Shown here: in pieces, positions 37,102-44,658 of the stretch
Position numbering within the stretch: the first letter of the stretch is position 1
Layout of the letters: every line of letters starts with the position of its first letter
Assembly: GCA_026003175.1 (NCBI GenBank)
Contig: BPGT01000002.1
Coordinates: 930,001 to 994,000 of the forward strand
Length of the DNA stretch: 64,000 nucleotides
From: Armatimonadota bacterium
Lineage (GTDB): Bacteria; Armatimonadota; HRBIN16
Direction of reading: 5' to 3'
Program-made: the position numbers and the translations under genes
The notes under the pieces: model-generated
The model's database searches: none
Seen by the model: the letters and a program-made list of their open reading frames with translations, nothing else
Told to the model about the DNA's origin: nothing

Positions 37102-37941
37102 TTAGGGCAGTTGAAGAGGCTGGTCTGGAGCAAAAATGCGCTGGACATTTGCATACAGACTTGGCCATGCTCCTTTGCGAAGGCGGAATTTTGTGCCGTG
37201 ATTATGCCTCGTTCGTGCGTCGAAGTCTACTAGCACATCTCCTGTCTCTATCGCTTGAAGGAAAGCATCGAAACGAAAGTCGGATAGCAGATAAAGCTCC
37301 TCGAAGCGAAACCATTCGTGCTCATTCTCTATCTTACTGTCGGCAATCACGTAGAAACAGTTGCGGAGCTTTTGAGCAATAAGTGGTTCAAGGTCGTCAA
37401 ACGCCCAGAATGGCTCGGGGTTCAAAGGAGCGAATCCTGTTCGCTGTTTGACCTCCTCTAACCATCCTGCAATTTCCGGGACATCACTTTTTACCCTAGT
37501 GTGGTCGAAAACAAGTCTCAACTTCTTTGCCTCTCTATCTACCAGTATAGTGAAACCTCTATCGGTAAACTGCGAGGCGCGAATAGTCTGGCGGAAACTC
37601 ATTTCGTCCTGTGGGTATTTCTTGCCTGCCAGCTGGTGTCGCCACCCATGGAGAGGCAATAGTATATTAGTAACCACTTTGCATGCACGCGGAGATGGCT
37701 CGACATGCTTGAGGGTAACCAGCGAGGTAGAATCTTTGCGCTGAGCCTTAATCTCCCACTCTTGGGCGTTAGGGATCGGGAGGTTGTTCTCGGTGATGCC
37801 CAAGAGCGACTCAAGAGTGTTTCCAACAGCTCCATCGTTACGCATGTTCACAGTGTGCTTAACACTTTTGTGCCATCCCTGCTGAGAGATAGCATAAATC
37901 CTCATGATAAGGTCTTCTTTGCAGAGTAACTCAATGTTCAT
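37102..37941 (-). CDS. Type II restriction endonuclease, MvaI/BcnI family
   Basis: This 279-aa protein matches the monomeric MvaI/BcnI enzymes: LLGITENNLPIPNAQEWEIK contains the PD-(D/E)xK core (E-x-K in EWEIKAQ). Then come EPSPRA, EMSFRQTI, RGFTILVD, and DFDARTRHNHGTKFRLRKG near the end, the family's DNA-contact stretch. MvaI cuts CCWGG and BcnI CCSGG; the exact site here cannot be told. The ATG at 37941 overlaps the stop of the methyltransferase gene (ATGA) and has no ribosome-binding site of its own. This suggests coupling, so the nuclease is made only after the methyltransferase message is read. Confidence 0.9.
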   Translation of the reverse strand: MNIELLCKEDLIMRIYAISQQGWHKSVKHTVNMRNDGAVGNTLESLLGITENNLPIPNAQEWEIKAQRKDSTSLVTLKHVEPSPRACKVVTNILLPLHGWRHQLAGKKYPQDEMSFRQTIRASQFTDRGFTILVDREAKKLRLVFDHTRVKSDVPEIAGWLEEVKQRTGFAPLNPEPFWAFDDLEPLIAQKLRNCFYVIADSKIENEHEWFRFEELYLLSDFRFDAFLQAIETGDVLVDFDARTRHNHGTKFRLRKGAWPSLYANVQRIFAPDQPLQLP

Positions 37942-38876
37942 TCTGGTCGCCAAAAATCAAGGAGGTATTCAAACGTAGTGCCCATCGTGATGTAGTTTGA
38001 CGGATAGCCGAAAATGCCTATACCGTTAACAAGGTTGCGTCTATCCCAGATGATAATGTTGCGCAGCTCGTACCCCCGTTTGCGCAGTTCCTCGACAAGG
38101 GCAATGTGTATGGTAATCCGCTCATCTTCCCACCACATATCGGGCACGTTGATCACGCAGTGTGCTTTGGGTTTGAGTAACGGCAACAATGATTCAAAAA
38201 TGTCGCCCATCGCCTGCGTATAATTTTCCAGATTCATCGTGCCCAGGTCTCGTTCATCCTGGCTGTACTGCTCCACTTTTCCATACTGCTCGTTTTTACG
38301 GAACCTTCTGGATTTGTTCTTACGAGGGCGATTGAGAAGATTCGCATATGGGGGCGATGTCCAAACCAGCTTCACCGTCTCTTCCCGCAAGTACAAAGGG
38401 ATATGCCGAGCGTCATCCTGTATCGCCACCTGCTGGGTGCTGCCCAGAGGAAGCGAGGCACGTATCCTCTCCGCACATAACGCCACGTACCTCTCCTGCA
38501 GGTCAAAACCGACTGCGTTCCTATCCAGGTCCTGTGCCGCAACCAGTGTGGTGCCACTACCTACAAACGGGTCCAGCACCAGCTCTCCACGATGGGTAAA
38601 GAGCTCTATTATCCGCTTTGCCAGCGCGATGGGGAACACCGCAGGGTGCACACTCTTATCGCGAATGTCGCGTCCCTCATACGAAAATTGCCAAACTCCT
38701 ACCTGGCATTTCACCCACTCCGCTGGAGGCAGGCAACTCAGATGACTGGGTTTGCAGTCACACTGACGTTCGCAAGCAATCGGCAGTTTGCGGCGATAGA
38801 AAACACTATTCGGGTAGATTGCCTCTGGCAGACGTGGTATGTTCGGCAACACGCTGATTTCCGCCTGAACCGTCAT
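37938..38876 (-). CDS. Type II DNA methyltransferase (N4-cytosine type)
   Basis: This 312-aa protein has the SAM-binding motif LVLDPFVGSGTTL and the catalytic motif TSPPYANLL, whose SPPY form is typical of N4-cytosine methyltransferases. Later motifs NVPDMWWEDE and PSNYITMGTTFEYLLDFW complete the fold. A cysteine-rich stretch near residues 34-50 (CERQCDCKPSHLSC) may bind a metal. Next to an MvaI/BcnI nuclease it should protect the same site (MvaI's partner also makes N4-methylcytosine). GAGGAG precedes the ATG. Confidence 0.92.
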   Translation of the reverse strand: MTVQAEISVLPNIPRLPEAIYPNSVFYRRKLPIACERQCDCKPSHLSCLPPAEWVKCQVGVWQFSYEGRDIRDKSVHPAVFPIALAKRIIELFTHRGELVLDPFVGSGTTLVAAQDLDRNAVGFDLQERYVALCAERIRASLPLGSTQQVAIQDDARHIPLYLREETVKLVWTSPPYANLLNRPRKNKSRRFRKNEQYGKVEQYSQDERDLGTMNLENYTQAMGDIFESLLPLLKPKAHCVINVPDMWWEDERITIHIALVEELRKRGYELRNIIIWDRRNLVNGIGIFGYPSNYITMGTTFEYLLDFWRPE

Positions 38877-39097: not shown

Positions 39098-40036
39098 ATG
39101 AACCGGCGTGAGATGTTACAGTGGTTAGGAGTAGCAGGCATGGCGGCGATCGCCGGTTGCTCAGGGCGAAGAAGCGGGCTGCCTGAAGTCTCCCAGAAAC
39201 CGCTGAGTACCCCTAAAGCAGAGCACCTCAAGAGGGTTCAAAACATCGTGGCAGTTGCTTCACGAGGTAACGCACGCGAGATGGTGGAGCGTGCCTTGCG
39301 TCCGCTGGGTGGCATCGACAAGTTCGTGCGCCCGGGCGATACGGTGGTGCTGAAGCCGAATGCGGCGTGGTTACGTACCCCCGAACAAGCCGCAAATACC
39401 AACCCCGAAGTAGTGGCAGCGGTGGTCGAACTGTGCAAGAAAGCGGGGGCAAAGCGCATCCTCATCGTAGAGCACACCTGCGACAACCCCGCCACGATGT
39501 GCTTCGAGATGAGCGGCATCCGCAAGGTTGCCGAAGCGGGTGGCGCAGTTATCATCAATGCCAACGCTGAAGGAATGTATCGCCCCGTAAACATCACAGG
39601 GGCAAAAGCGCTCCAGCAGACACAGGTGGTACGAGACGTGCTGGAGGCGGACTGTTTCATCAACCTGCCCGTTGCCAAAGACCACAGCGCCACCCGCGTC
39701 ACGCTGGGGCTGAAGAACCTGATGGGCATTATTTGGGACCGACAGGAGTGGCATCACCTCGGCGTGCATGAGTGCATCGGCGATTTTACGCTGGCAGTGA
39801 AGCCACATCTAACCATTATCGACGCTACTCGTATCCTGGTCACTAAAGGACCCAAGGGTCCTGGCGAGGTGGCACATCCCAACCAGATTATCGCGGCGGT
39901 AGACCCCGTAGCAGCGGATGCCTTCGCCACTACCCTGTTCGGGCTGAAGCCGGACGACATCGGTTACATCATGCACGCACACCGGCTGGGTGTGGGCGAG
40001 GCACGCCTGAATCGCCTCAGCATCACGAGGGTATAA
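39098..40036 (+). CDS. DUF362 protein, exported lipoprotein-like
   Basis: This 312-aa protein has a twin-arginine-like start (NRREMLQWLGVAG) and a lipobox AIAGC (Cys21), so it is probably anchored outside the membrane. The DUF362 core follows: VRPGDTVVLKPNAAW, NTNPEVVAAVVELCKKAGAK, FINLPVAKDHSATRVTLGLK, NLMGIIW and DPVAADAFA. Function of DUF362 is not established; many members sit beside iron-sulfur proteins, as here. AGGAGG precedes the ATG, and it heads a three-gene operon. Confidence 0.88.
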   Translation: MNRREMLQWLGVAGMAAIAGCSGRRSGLPEVSQKPLSTPKAEHLKRVQNIVAVASRGNAREMVERALRPLGGIDKFVRPGDTVVLKPNAAWLRTPEQAANTNPEVVAAVVELCKKAGAKRILIVEHTCDNPATMCFEMSGIRKVAEAGGAVIINANAEGMYRPVNITGAKALQQTQVVRDVLEADCFINLPVAKDHSATRVTLGLKNLMGIIWDRQEWHHLGVHECIGDFTLAVKPHLTIIDATRILVTKGPKGPGEVAHPNQIIAAVDPVAADAFATTLFGLKPDDIGYIMHAHRLGVGEARLNRLSITRV

Positions 40037-40039
40037 CCG

Positions 40040-41650
40040 ATGAGCACGGTCACGGAGGCACGACAGCGGTTTAAGCTGGCAGGGCGGGTGCGTCCGCGTT
40101 TCTGGCGGATGCAGAACGTCCGGCGCACGGTGCAGCTGGTGTTCCTTGCGCTGTTCGTGATGCTATTGGCGTTCACCGTTTACCCGGTACGCTCGCCGAT
40201 TACGGTAGATTTCTTCTTCCGTGCCGACCCGCTGGCTGTTATCAGCACCTTCATCGCCTCACGGGAGGTAGTCGGTGTGCTGATTCCTCTGGCGGCGGCG
40301 ATGCTCGCGCTGACTCTGGTGCTGGGCAGGTTCTTCTGCGGCTGGTTCTGCCCGATGGGCACGCTGATAGACCTGTCCGACCGCTTTGTGGTACGACGCA
40401 CCAGGCGCGCTGCCGGCGCGAAGGGATTCCCGCAGGTAAAGTACTATATTCTCGCCGCACTGTTGGTATCTGCTCTGTTCTCGGTGCAAGTCGCTTACTT
40501 CTTCGACCCGTTTGCCATCCTCACGCGCACGGTGGTGTGGGTGCTGTTCGCACCGATGGCTCTGCTGGGACGGATGGTGACCGAATCGCCGGTCGTAGCG
40601 GATTGGGTACCCTCGCTCACACAGATACCCTTCATCCCCGAAACCCAGCCGCACTACCGGATGAACCTGCTGGCAGCGTTGTTGTTTGCGGGCATCCTCG
40701 CGCTGGGGTTAGTTAGCCGACGCTTCTGGTGTCGTAACCTGTGCCCATTGGGTGCGTTGCTGGCGCTGCTCTCCGGGTGGGGCATCGTGCGACGACAGAC
40801 AGCGTCGGACAAGTGCATCGAGTGCCACCGCTGCGACCGCGAGTGCAAGATGGGCGCGATTCTTCCCGATTCGCATCGCTATCTGGCACGGGAATGCATC
40901 TATTGCTATAATTGTGTATCGGTATGTGCGCCCGGAGCCACCTCTTTCCCCCTCACGCTACGGCGTGAGGGTTTTGAAACGGCAACCGACCTCAACCGCC
41001 GTCGGTTGCTGGGGTTTGCTGCGCTGGGTGCGCTGTGGGCAGGCATTACAGTAAGCGATATCGGCGCGAAGAAGGCGGGCAATTCGCCCGTCAAGGCATC
41101 TAGCCCCTTCCGCATCCGACCGCCAGGCAGCCTGCCCGAGGAGCAGTTTCTGCAGAAGTGCGTGCGGTGCAGTCTGTGCATGAAAGTGTGCCCCACCAAC
41201 GGTTTGCAACCCGCACTTACCGAAGCAGGCATTGAAGGCTTCTGGACGCCCGTGCTGGTTCCGCGCATCGGACACTGTGCTCAGCACTGCACCGCCTGCG
41301 GTGATGTATGCCCGACCGACGCCATCCAGCCCTTCACCGCGGCGGAAAAGAAGTACCTTTTCATCGGGCGGGCATACATAGACAGGAGCATGTGCATTGT
41401 GTGGGCGCAGGATAAGAAGTGCCTCGTGTGCGACGAACACTGCTCTTACCGCGCGCTGCACTGGAAAGTGGTGGACGGACTGCGCCGCCCGTTCGTCAAT
41501 GAATATCTCTGTACAGGCTGCGGCGAATGCGAAGCCAAATGTCCGGTGCAACCGGTAGCGGCGATCCGCGTCACCACACTGGGCGACCTGCGCCATCTGA
41601 CGCGCGAAGCGCAAAAGCGATTCTACGAACGACATCTGGAAGAGGAGTGA
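40040..41650 (+). CDS. Membrane polyferredoxin (NapH-like) electron carrier
   Basis: This 536-aa protein has membrane helices (LVFLALFVMLLAFTVYPV and others) with the NapH/CcoG motif FFCGWFCPMG and a second CRNLCPLGALL. Many iron-sulfur motifs follow: CIECHRCDREC, CIYCYNCVSVC, CVRCSLCMKVCP, CTACGDVCP, CLVCDEHC and CTGCGECEAKCP, enough for at least five 4Fe-4S clusters. Residues near 315-335 (GFAALGALWAGITVSD) resemble a Tat-type segment, as if a NapH-like half were fused to a NapG-like half. It probably moves electrons between the quinone pool and the flanking DUF362 proteins. Confidence 0.9.
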   Translation: MSTVTEARQRFKLAGRVRPRFWRMQNVRRTVQLVFLALFVMLLAFTVYPVRSPITVDFFFRADPLAVISTFIASREVVGVLIPLAAAMLALTLVLGRFFCGWFCPMGTLIDLSDRFVVRRTRRAAGAKGFPQVKYYILAALLVSALFSVQVAYFFDPFAILTRTVVWVLFAPMALLGRMVTESPVVADWVPSLTQIPFIPETQPHYRMNLLAALLFAGILALGLVSRRFWCRNLCPLGALLALLSGWGIVRRQTASDKCIECHRCDRECKMGAILPDSHRYLARECIYCYNCVSVCAPGATSFPLTLRREGFETATDLNRRRLLGFAALGALWAGITVSDIGAKKAGNSPVKASSPFRIRPPGSLPEEQFLQKCVRCSLCMKVCPTNGLQPALTEAGIEGFWTPVLVPRIGHCAQHCTACGDVCPTDAIQPFTAAEKKYLFIGRAYIDRSMCIVWAQDKKCLVCDEHCSYRALHWKVVDGLRRPFVNEYLCTGCGECEAKCPVQPVAAIRVTTLGDLRHLTREAQKRFYERHLEEE

Positions 41651-41656
41651 AGCACC

Positions 41657-42640
41657 ATGCCATCGAGAAGAGAGTTTTTGAAAGAGCTGATGAGAACCGG
41701 AGCGGGGCTGTACACCCCGACCGCTGTGTTCGCTGTACTGCTACAAGAGAAAAGAAACCCCCAGAGCATAGTGGTAGAGGTCAAAAACCCCAATGTACAA
41801 ACCGAAGCACACCGGATTCGCCCAGAAATCGCGCAGGTGATGGTCTTCGAAGCGGTGCGGCGGCTAAGCGGAGAGAAAACCGACAGGGAAGCATGGCGAC
41901 ACTACTTCACCCCTGAAGACGTGGTGGGCATTAAAGTCAACTGCCTGTTTGGGCGAGGGGCTTCCACTCACCCTGAGGTGGTGATGGCGATTGTGGAGGG
42001 GCTGAAGTTGGCAGGTGTCAAGCCGGAAAATATCATCATCTGGGACCGGAGCGACGCCGACCTGGCGAAGGCGGGGTTCACCCTGAATCGCGAAGGACCC
42101 GGTGTGAAGTGCTACGGGACTAACGGTGACTACGAGCCTACCCCTACCCGGCACGGCTCCTTCAACGGACGCTTGAGCAAGATTCTCACCGAACGCATCA
42201 CTGCGCTGGTAAATGCCCCTATCTTGAAAGACCACAGCATCGCAGGCATTACCAACGCCTGCAAGAATCACTACGGCTCCATCGATAACCCGGGCGCCCA
42301 TCACGGCAATAACTGCGACCCTTATCTGGCAGACTTAAACGCAGTGCCCGCCATTCGTCAGAAAACACGCCTGGTTATCTGCGACGCCATCCGTCCGATA
42401 CCAGATGGCGGTCCTGGTCTGCGCGGAGACGTGGCATGGGATTACAACGCTATCCTCGCGTCCACCGACCCCATCGCTATCGACACCGTCGGCTGGCAGA
42501 TTATTGAGGCGAGGCGCAAGGAGACGGGCTTACCGCCGCTGGCACAGGTGGGGCGACCGGTACGCTATCTGCAGAGCGCGGCGCAGATAGGCATCGGCAC
42601 TAACGATCCGAATAAAATCAAGCTGGTACGGGTGGGGTAA
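41657..42640 (+). CDS. DUF362 protein, second copy
   Basis: This 327-aa protein starts with SRREFLKELMRTG, a Tat-like twin-arginine sequence, but has no lipobox. The DUF362 core is present (FTPEDVVGIKVNCLFGRGAS, ALVNAPILKDHSIAGITNAC, STDPIAIDTVGWQIIE). It differs clearly from the first DUF362 protein of the operon, so the two are not a recent duplication. It lies 6 bp after the polyferredoxin gene. The C-terminus (QSAAQIGIGTNDPNKIKLV) resembles an ending seen in related proteins. Confidence 0.88.
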   Translation: MPSRREFLKELMRTGAGLYTPTAVFAVLLQEKRNPQSIVVEVKNPNVQTEAHRIRPEIAQVMVFEAVRRLSGEKTDREAWRHYFTPEDVVGIKVNCLFGRGASTHPEVVMAIVEGLKLAGVKPENIIIWDRSDADLAKAGFTLNREGPGVKCYGTNGDYEPTPTRHGSFNGRLSKILTERITALVNAPILKDHSIAGITNACKNHYGSIDNPGAHHGNNCDPYLADLNAVPAIRQKTRLVICDAIRPIPDGGPGLRGDVAWDYNAILASTDPIAIDTVGWQIIEARRKETGLPPLAQVGRPVRYLQSAAQIGIGTNDPNKIKLVRVG

Positions 42641-42646
42641 TCCTCC

Positions 42647-42675
42647 GTAGGGGCAGCGCTCATGGTTGCCCCTAC
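42647..42675. terminator. Hairpin between convergent operons
   Basis: GTAGGGGCA (42647-42655) and TGCCCCTAC (42667-42675) form a perfect 9-bp stem with an 11-nt loop. It overlaps the stop codon of the TlpA-like gene and follows the DUF362 operon by 6 bp, so it may end transcription from both sides. No long T-run is present. Confidence 0.6.
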
Positions 42676-43181
42676 AGGGCACGTTGCACCGTATCTTCCA
42701 GCATCTGGATGGTGTTCTGCGGGTCGTAGCCCTCCATCCGTCGCAAGATATTGCCCTCTTTGTCGATAATGAACAGCGTGGGCAGGTTCCGTATCTGATA
42801 CGCGCTTTTCGCCGCCCCATCGCCGTCAACGGCGATGGGATAATTGACGCCCATCTCCTTGACGAACTGCTCTATCTCCGCGCGGCTAGTCGCGTCCACC
42901 GCTACACCGATGACCACCACGTTCTGGTCGCGATGGCGGCTGTGGAACTGTATCATCTTGGGCATGGTGAACCGGCATGGGGCGCACCATGTCGCCCAGA
43001 AGTCCAGTACCACCACTTTGCCCTTGTAATCCGCCAGCGATTTGGTTTCGCCGTCGAGCAGATTCAGGGTGATGTTCGGAGCAGCATCTCCCTCCCCCAT
43101 CTGCTTCGGGGGCTGGAACGCATAAATCACCAGCCCCGCTATCAACACAATCACCACATAAATGACCGCTCTTCGCATCAT
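42672..43181 (-). CDS. TlpA/ResA-like thioredoxin
   Basis: This 169-aa protein has an N-terminal membrane anchor (VIYVVIVLIAGLVIYAF) and an AhpC/TlpA-type domain with the active site FWATWCAPCRFTMPKM and the cis-Pro stretch IRNLPTLFIIDKEG. It should reduce disulfides on the outer face of the membrane, for example in cytochrome maturation. It is the last gene of an operon with the ferredoxin-NADP reductase and moaE, 9 bp after the reductase. Confidence 0.92.
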   Translation of the reverse strand: MMRRAVIYVVIVLIAGLVIYAFQPPKQMGEGDAAPNITLNLLDGETKSLADYKGKVVVLDFWATWCAPCRFTMPKMIQFHSRHRDQNVVVIGVAVDATSRAEIEQFVKEMGVNYPIAVDGDGAAKSAYQIRNLPTLFIIDKEGNILRRMEGYDPQNTIQMLEDTVQRAL

Positions 43182-43190
43182 GCCCCCTCA

Positions 43191-44181
43191 TCAGAGTTTC
43201 ATCTCACTGCTGTGACCGGGGAAGAACTGCGCGGTAGGGTCTATCCACCGCTTTGCCGAGTTCACGGCGATAGCCGCTTCCCCAACGCCTGTGGCAATCA
43301 GCCGGAGCTTGCCGGGGTAGGTTACCACATCGCCCGCCGCAAAAACACCGGGCAGGTTCGTGCGCATGAAGTGGTCCACCCGAATAAAGTGGTTCTCCAT
43401 ATCCAATCCCCAGTTTCGGACGGCGCCCACATCGGCGTTAAAGCCGATGCTGATAACCGCCGCATCCACTTCCAGCTGTTGCTCCTCCATCGTACGGTTG
43501 TTGAAGATGGTAACCGCCCGAAGGTTGCCGTTCTCGCCGTGCAACGCTTTCAGCTCCCAGAACAGCTTCACCTCGGCGGGCGAGCGGAGTAGCATCTGCA
43601 CATTGCCCTCATGCGCCCGAAACACATCGCGCCGGTGGATAAGGGTGACGTGGCGGGCAATAGGCAACAGGGTGAGTGCCCAGTCTACGGCGGAGTCACC
43701 TCCGCCTACGATAAGCACTCTCTTGCCGGCAAACGCTTCCTTTTCCCGCACAAAATAGAAAACGGAACGCCCTTCATACTCGCCGATACCCGGCAGCTGT
43801 AATTTGCGAGGGCGGAACGCACCGGCTCCCACTGCAATCAGCACCGTGCGGGTATCGTGCTCCGTCCTGTCGGTGATGATTCGCCAGTACCCCCCCAACC
43901 TGTCTCAGATCCAGTGCCTCTTCGTCCAGACAGACAGTGGGATGGAAACGCATCGCCTGCTCCACCATCCGCTGCACCAGATCGCGCGCCAGGATACAGG
44001 GGAAGCCGGGCATGTCATACACGTACTTCTCAGGATACAGCGTGCTGAGCTGCCCTCCCAGCTCCGGCAAACTGTCGATGATTTTGGTGCTCATGGAACG
44101 CATTCCTGCGCAAAACGCGGCGAACAACCCTACCGGTCCACCTCCAATGATGGTGATGTCGTACACCTCGCGCTCTGTCAC
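43191..44181 (-). pseudogene. Type 2 ferredoxin-NADP reductase, +1 shift in a G7 tract
   Basis: The N-terminal part ([36 protein letters not shown]) matches YumC-type ferredoxin-NADP+ reductases. After LDLRQV the frame is lost, and the family continues in another frame as [53 protein letters not shown], to the stop at 43191. The join lies in seven G (43890-43896 on the minus strand): six would give an intact protein of about 330 aa. FAD and NADPH motifs are complete. It may be a sequencing error, phase-variable or truly broken. GTG at 44181 is the likely start; 44211 overlaps moaE. Confidence 0.82.
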
Positions 44182-44207
44182 GAGGCATCCCTGCCCTTCC
44201 TGTAGTA

Positions 44208-44658
44208 TCACTCAACGGATTGCACGGCTTCGTCGCCTTCGATCCAGTAAGTGCCGTCAGGGCAAACCTCTTTCTTCCAGATAGGAACCCGCTCTTTCAA
44301 GGTATCGATGCACCAGCGGCAGGCTTCGAACGCCTGCTCCCGGTGCGGTGTGGCGACAGCGATGAGGACGCTCGTTTCGCCCACGTCCATTCTCCCTAAC
44401 CGATGCACCATCGCCACGCGCGCCCCCCCACCGTTGCGCTGCCTCCCCTGCTATCTCCCGCATCTGCTTCAGCGCCATCGGCTCGTACGCCTCGTACTCC
44501 AGATAGCGTACCTCGCGCCCACGCGAGTGATTGCGCACCACACCCGCGAATACTGCTACCGCCCCGCATTCTGCAGCCGCCACCGCTTGCCGAACCGACG
44601 CTTCATCAATCGGCTCGCGCGTGAGACGGCAATATACCACTGCTCCCGCTGGTGCCAT
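44208..44658 (-). pseudogene. moaE: Molybdopterin synthase large subunit, +1 shift in a G7 tract
   Basis: Starting at ATG 44658 (AGGAGG upstream), the frame matches MoaE through GAVAVFAGVVRNHSRGREV, RYLEYEAYEPMALKQMREI and AQRW. It then runs into seven G (44423-44429). The correct continuation lies in another frame: RVAMVHRLGRMDVGETSVLI, AVATPHREQAFEACRWCIDT, PIWKKEVCPDGTYWIEG. With six G the protein would be complete (about 149 aa, normal length). The conserved Lys of the active site (WKKE) is in the second part. MoaE transfers sulfur to form molybdopterin. No moaD is seen nearby. Confidence 0.8.

Follow-up and report, generated by a model that had tools for sequence, protein, structure and literature searches.

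NapGH is the quinol dehydrogenase of periplasmic nitrate reductase, and racemases and epimerases of the LarA type use a nickel-pincer nucleotide (NPN) cofactor, which abstracts the hydride of a 2-hydroxy acid and then returns it. Features of both systems are combined in a three-gene operon at positions 39098-42640 of the window, i.e., of the whole stretch of 64,000 nucleotides analyzed here from contig BPGT01000002.1 of an Armatimonadota bacterium with a genome of 4.1 Mb in 7 contigs. All three genes are located on the + strand and are separated by intergenic gaps of 3 and 6 bases. The first one, D1 (39098-40036), encodes a DUF362 protein of 312 amino acids and is followed by the gene of a polyferredoxin of 536 amino acids (40040-41650) and by D2 (41657-42640), which encodes a second DUF362 protein of 327 amino acids. 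The original prediction of two DUF362 genes flanking a polyferredoxin related to NapH and NapG was confirmed by open reading frames (ORFs) as well as by Pfam and NCBIfam scans. With a probability of roughly 40%, we consider the operon to encode an exported redox module in which D1 and D2 would act as LarA-fold terminal enzymes, possibly with NPN as cofactor.

Predicted fold, export and candidate active-site residues of D1 and D2

Assignment of D1 and D2 to DUF362 (PF04015) is based on scores of 175.7 and 83.0 bits, respectively, at a curated cut-off of 24, and only one further protein of the host genome, likewise exported, matches this family. The two proteins are about 28% identical and hence clearly different, as had been stated before. 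Both also carry the expected starts for twin-arginine translocation (Tat), NRREML in D1, which additionally contains a lipobox-like IAGC (C21), and SRREFLK in D2. A twin-arginine motif was found in 39 of 39 D1-type frames examined, where in L063, and perhaps in other overlong frames, the matched arginine pair may precede the true start. Export of both proteins is supported by these twin-arginine starts. Other DUF362 proteins, namely cytoplasmic ones with ferredoxin tails and members of the Npun_F2552 family, belong to the same Pfam family and share the lysine and the two histidines discussed below. In contrast to these, D1 and D2 begin with export motifs, are devoid of ferredoxin tails and are encoded together with the polyferredoxin; D1 reached 92.7 bits against the Npun_F2552 model, the cut-off of which is 500.

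AlphaFold2 models of both proteins are confident except for the signal regions, with a predicted local distance difference test (pLDDT) of 92.6 and a predicted template modeling score (pTM) of 0.88 for D1, and values of 92.0 and 0.87 for D2. All 19 hits with E below 0.001 that Foldseek returned for the D1 model are of LarA type, including structural-genomics entry 4nar of the same fold group. In VIA-align, D1 superimposed on LarA of Isosphaera pallida with a Z of 18.7 over 207 residues at 2.6 A, while the first unrelated fold followed at Z 5.6. Similarly, D2 matched the LarA fold with Z 17.4 (204 residues, 2.7 A), the next fold being found at Z 5.2. According to these models, D1 and D2 share the fold of LarA, the nickel-pincer racemase. 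Sequence searches of the PDB gave no match for D1 at E 0.001 and none for D2 at E 1. The relation of the folds is not new in itself, because DUF362 and the LarA domain have already been joined in one Pfam clan, CL0471, as mentioned in a passage of PMC11770544. In the Pfam scan, D1 and D2 matched PF04015 only and not the LarA family model PF09861, for which reason they are not filed as LarA. Besides fold and clan, the two proteins have in common with LarA/DUF2088 racemases and epimerases the residues aligned with K184, H200 and H174. They differ from the latter by a shorter C-terminal part, by their export, by their apparent coupling to an electron carrier and by the lack of a visible counterpart of K298, and their cofactor is putative.

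The candidate active-site residues emerged from profile alignment (hhalign) of DUF362 with 22 LarA homologues. In both of two runs, H196, K206 and H219 of D1 (39683-39754, + strand) were paired with H174, K184 and H200 of LarA, of which K184 and H200 keep the nickel-pincer cofactor in place and H174 takes part in catalysis, as described in parts of PMC7583248. Spacings within this triad are 10 and 13 residues in D1, compared to 10 and 16 (as published) in the LarA template row. Over 134 aligned DUF362 rows, many of which are near-identical copies of one gene, K206 is conserved in 130/130 ungapped rows, H196 in 126/129 and H219 in 128/130. The corresponding triad of D2, as deduced from the aligned DUF362 rows, comprises H193, K203 and H216 (42233-42304, + strand); among 28 rows, H193 and K203 are invariant and H216 is kept in at least 90%. 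Thus, the NPN-binding and catalytic positions K184, H200 and H174 are matched in D1 and D2 by alignment alone. As to the metal ligands and cysteines that the original prediction had recommended to search for in the DUF362 pair, a conserved histidine aligns with the nickel-binding H200 of LarA, and D1 contains 6 and D2 5 cysteines, without any CxxC-type cluster motif in either protein. DUF362 proteins as iron-sulphur carriers were rejected on this ground.

As a side observation, glutamine replaces H219 in two DUF362 proteins (L150, G010:C28, and L153, G024:C24), both encoded in genomes without a match for LarC, one of the proteins that make NPN. Loss of H219 was also considered as a mark of NPN-lacking genomes and was discarded, since glutamine occurs in these two rows only and other DUF362 proteins of G010 and G024 keep the histidine.

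The polyferredoxin and its linkage to DUF362

Among NCBIfam models, those of NapH matched the first part of the polyferredoxin and those of NapG the last part. Scores were 98.6 bits for TIGR02163 (curated cut-off 213.05), 94.8 for NF007013 (234), 70.6 for NF007012 (269) and 64.4 for TIGR00397 (178.85). As none of these NapH and NapG cut-offs was reached in the scan, the protein is not filed as either of the two. All 28 cysteines of the polyferredoxin fall inside two CX3CP motifs, located beside hydrophobic stretches, and six four-cysteine cluster motifs, a grouping that represents our own reading of the cysteine positions, and an internal RRR precedes a hydrophobic stretch at 323-341. In these cysteine motifs, hydrophobic stretches and the internal RRR, the polyferredoxin displays the cluster and membrane anatomy of NapH and NapG. 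Based on hydropathy, we infer a cytoplasmic NapH-like part and an external NapG-like part following the RRR and the hydrophobic stretch. The notion of a membrane polyferredoxin composed of NapH joined to NapG is therefore supported at the level of anatomy. Like NapGH, it combines a NapH-like membrane part, with two CX3CP and two cluster motifs, and a NapG-like part in which a twin-arginine stretch precedes four cluster motifs. Unlike NapGH, it is a single fused protein, scores below the curated cut-offs and is partnered by DUF362 instead of NapB/NapA; no nap reductase gene was found beside the operon in the ORF list and the Pfam scan. A PDB sequence search with the polyferredoxin gave generic ferredoxin matches only. 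Proteins of the NosR/PceC type, which combine FMN-bind and NapH domains, are membrane NapH-like electron carriers as well, whereas the Pfam scan detected no FMN_bind domain in the host module. Separately, an FMN_bind-TPR-type gene, not DUF362, precedes a related polyferredoxin at two loci of Planctomycetaceae (Planctomycetota; L057:1587-4465 and L058:5935-9377), its identity having been scanned in L058 only and assigned in L057 via the same cluster.

Loose linkage of DUF362 genes to the polyferredoxin in other genomes had been named as the observation that would speak against the operon, and a survey of gene neighborhoods revealed the opposite. Counted as present at E below 1e-60, the polyferredoxin occurs in 35 of 61 Armatimonadota genomes, and is immediately preceded by a DUF362 gene of the same orientation in 31 of these 35. 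Three genomes are devoid of the upstream DUF362 gene (G017, G044, G054), and one (G053) could not be judged due to a contig end. Of 42 loci found in named genomes, two were dropped for weak match. DUF362 is upstream of the polyferredoxin in 33 of the 40 counted and absent in 7, one of which has only 257 bases upstream. Six of the 40 loci belong to the host genus, and outside this genus the fraction is 27/34. Among the closest named relatives of the host are HRbin16 (L027), the polyferredoxin of which is 93% identical, and metagenome-assembled genomes labelled Armatimonadetes or Chthonomonadia. Overall, titles of the named loci span Armatimonadota, Deltaproteobacteria/Thermodesulfobacteriota (Desulfobacterota), Syntrophaceae and Aminicenantes, and one Bacteroidota record, Parabacteroides distasonis, also contains the pair of D1 and polyferredoxin. 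Because this adjacency recurs across phyla, it is not a chance neighborhood, and a real functional link between DUF362 and the polyferredoxin is supported.

These data also bear on a simpler explanation, according to which an ordinary NapGH-like quinol dehydrogenase feeds an unlinked reductase, while the DUF362 genes are mere hitch-hikers. This would be in line with NapH and NapG models as best NCBIfam matches and with a polyferredoxin devoid of upstream DUF362 at 7 of 40 named loci and in 3 of 35 genomes. Hitch-hiking does not predict, however, that order and strand are constant at the remaining loci across phyla, and we regard this explanation as very improbable.

D2 is rarer than D1; its gene comes after that of the polyferredoxin in G249 and the host genus, and before D1 in G013, G051, G270 and G271. 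No third gene family recurs beside the pair in all lineages. A shared third neighbor was accordingly rejected, as neighboring genes vary by lineage (two-component propeller, RecD2, amidase, kinase, PilZ).

Synthesis of the nickel-pincer cofactor in genomes with DUF362

The host genome encodes LarE, LarB and LarC with scores of 340, 302 and 476 bits, all of them over the respective cut-off and in agreement with a second scan, while PF09861 (LarA) has 0 matches. Such a combination is not rare: according to sections of a 2024 mBio article, about 15% of the genomes analyzed there contain larB, larE and larC but no larA, and an NPN user whose fold differs from that of LarA is to be expected in larA-less genomes (PMC11796402). 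The same article demonstrated that the lar genes of the laboratory strain Synechocystis sp. PCC 6803 are functional. Since the host genus makes NPN and has no detectable LarA, the most likely carriers of NPN in the host would be D1 and D2 or the third DUF362 protein. That D1 and D2 themselves use NPN in this host is, in our estimate, doubtful. Candidates for an NPN user beside larE-larB or larC were looked for in the host, and none was seen.

Within the set of 61 Armatimonadota genomes, 22 are LarA-negative, and LarC was detected in 15 of the 16 with DUF362, compared to 1 of the 6 without. The single DUF362-positive genome lacking LarC (G007) is 77% complete and contains LarB and LarE, whereas the DUF362-negative genome with LarC (G006) is a sibling of the host and 89% complete. 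Counted by family, and leaving G006 aside, this set amounts to five families with both genes and three with neither, i.e., to few independent cases. Among 291 Armatimonadota genomes, 139 have both DUF362 and LarC, 18 DUF362 only, 26 LarC only and 108 neither, in counts that ignore shared descent. In genomes of family f7, LarC is encoded in two halves far apart in the genome (G029:C1:3233253-3233969 and G029:C1:656941-657399; also in G015 and other f7 genomes). Additionally, LarC was found in 32 and LarA in 30 of the 36 genomes behind the named loci L030-L065, and four of the six LarA-negative ones have LarC; as LarA is common there, this set says nothing on independence from LarA.

Several observations weigh against NPN-dependent terminal enzymes. 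On the protein side, the significance of the hhalign match is modest, with E 0.0097 and a probability of 4% for 43 rows, and E 1.1e-4 and 56% for a larger alignment. Counterparts of LarA R75 and H108 are inconsistent, since R93 and H126 of D1 lie nearby and are aligned differently between the two runs, with D2 carrying an arginine at the column of D1 H126, and no lysine was seen opposite LarA K298 in the hhalign alignments. Neither DUF362 protein has an iron-sulphur motif and, hence, an evident electron contact. On the genome side, 18 of 157 Armatimonadota genomes with DUF362 have no LarC and 26 of 165 with LarC have no DUF362. Four genomes, picked from the list of DUF362-positive, LarC-negative ones and thus not representing a rate, possess the pair of D1 and polyferredoxin, retain the complete residue triad and gave no match for LarC: G249 (98% complete), G270 (95%), G271 (99%) and G274 (97%). 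Three of them also have D2 nearby. For G274, LarC is present in a congener, so that a gap is possible, while G270 and G271, both genomes of family f39, are without LarC, and G271 (identical to G061, the genome of locus L030) has no LarA match either. The Parabacteroides distasonis record contains the pair with all residues kept, too. In the control genome of Bacteroides ihuae, DUF362 and Fer4_5 were matched, but LarC was not. Conversely, LarC was detected in two controls without LarA or DUF362, Corynebacterium glutamicum and Methanocaldococcus jannaschii. DUF362 can therefore not explain every orphan LarBCE set, and in these two organisms LarC is likely to supply a different NPN user or to have a different role. 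Finally, lar genes were found neither in the vicinity of the operon nor adjacent to larE-larB in the host.

A strict rule by which the pair of D1 and polyferredoxin implies NPN synthesis initially found support, as LarC occurs in 34 of 35 genomes with the polyferredoxin vs 14 of 26 without. It was rejected in view of the four LarC-negative Armatimonadota genomes and the Bacteroidota case. As the pair with its residues kept occurs where LarC was not found, the module formed by D1 and the polyferredoxin does not generally require NPN synthesis. The same genomes favor a second explanation, which retains the exported redox module but assigns a different content to the LarA-like site: another nucleotide or another metal, or solely catalytic lysine and histidine, with the match to LarBCE reflecting shared ancestry or another NPN user. 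Wide conservation of the residues in all kinds of DUF362 proteins, including those from the LarC-negative genomes G010, G024 and G059, fits this as well. It would leave LarBCE of the LarA-less genomes in the host genus without a user, however, and the residues kept are exactly those which hold NPN in LarA, as far as described in parts of PMC7583248. Altogether, a site for something other than NPN appears possible but less likely than not.

Neighboring genes and the proposed redox module

Tail to tail with the operon, two genes are located on the - strand. One encodes a TlpA/ResA-like thioredoxin-fold protein (42672-43181), convergent with D2, and the other a thioredoxin-reductase-like or ferredoxin-NADP reductase (FNR)-like flavoprotein (43191-44211). 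TlpA as a member of this facing operon, as originally predicted, was borne out, while the label 'ferredoxin-NADP reductase' for its companion is plausible but reached no curated cut-off. In the loci examined, the adjacency exists only within the host genus, which renders the two genes weak evidence; outside this genus, the sole TlpA-like match (L023, 31% identical) lies at a locus without DUF362. They are nevertheless relevant for a further explanation, in which D1 and D2 are accessory proteins for, or help to assemble, the polyferredoxin or another exported protein, with the redox partner located elsewhere, e.g., a TlpA-like protein for thiol reduction. The TlpA-like gene facing the operon in the host genus and the missing cluster motifs of D1 and D2 agree with such a role. 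A near-invariant lysine and near-invariant histidines in an enzyme fold do not, nor does the absence of TlpA and flavoprotein genes beside the pair outside the host genus, and we consider accessory factors improbable.

The flavoprotein gene is split by a frameshift into two overlapping frames (43191-43898 and 43774-44211), whereas it forms a single frame of 329 amino acids in the sibling HRbin16 (L027). A neighboring MoaE gene (44257-44658, - strand) likewise looks frameshifted here and forms a single frame in HRbin16. These paired frameshifts suggest small indel errors of the assembly or recent decay. Upstream of the operon, a restriction-modification pair is encoded (37102-38876, - strand), consisting of an MvaI/BcnI-type restriction endonuclease and an N4/N6 DNA methylase. 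The third exported DUF362 protein of the host is encoded behind a DUF6599 gene (host contig C2, L178:4636-6418), and in G045 the gene row is D1, polyferredoxin, DUF6599 and DUF362 (L016:3141-4582). DUF6599 may thus belong to a related DUF362 unit.

Returning to the explanation we prefer, the three genes would encode an extracytoplasmic redox module. Judging by its anatomy and by analogy with NapGH, the NapH-like half of the polyferredoxin may accept electrons from the quinone pool or donate them to it on the inner side of the membrane, and its iron-sulphur NapG-like half may carry them outside the cytoplasm. There, D1, and in this lineage also D2, would dock on the polyferredoxin as Tat-exported LarA-fold terminal enzyme, with an active site around the conserved lysine and two histidines, which in LarA tether NPN, bind nickel and act in catalysis. 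Either D1 and D2 or the third DUF362 protein of the host might carry NPN, loaded in the cytoplasm before export; Tat export would suit a protein that folds and receives its cofactor there. The cofactor would then abstract a hydride from the substrate and, instead of returning it as a racemase does, pass it on as electrons via the polyferredoxin; alternatively, the flow would be opposite. An electron carrier removing reducing equivalents would turn such an enzyme into a dehydrogenase, one supplying them into a reductase; the latter would correspond to the original suggestion that DUF362 proteins receive electrons. In our opinion, it is fairly probable that D1 is an enzyme outside the cytoplasm and is served by the polyferredoxin. 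We deem it rather unlikely that D1 and D2 are exported nickel-pincer enzymes which bring about a net oxidation or a net reduction and have the polyferredoxin as their partner in electron transfer. The original prediction had noted the absence of a terminal enzyme, probably wrongly, as D1 and D2 share with LarA enzymes both the fold and a portion of the active site.

In the literature searched, which left subscription journals mostly outside, no cofactor or function has been proposed for DUF362, and neither a proposal linking NPN to DUF362 nor a description of exported LarA-fold proteins associated with a carrier of the NapHG type was found. With the present analysis, a family named for a domain of unknown function gains a fold, candidate active-site residues and an electron partner tightly linked to it across several phyla. 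As a LarA-fold family keeping the tethering lysine, DUF362 is a testable candidate for an NPN user. Should NPN not be the cofactor, the LarC-negative genomes keeping the residues would point to a different, also new, use of the LarA site. If the proposal is true, D1 and D2 would be the first enzymes with NPN that neither belong to the LarA racemase family nor reside in the cytoplasm, and exported NPN enzymes would partly answer where NPN goes in genomes that make it without LarA.

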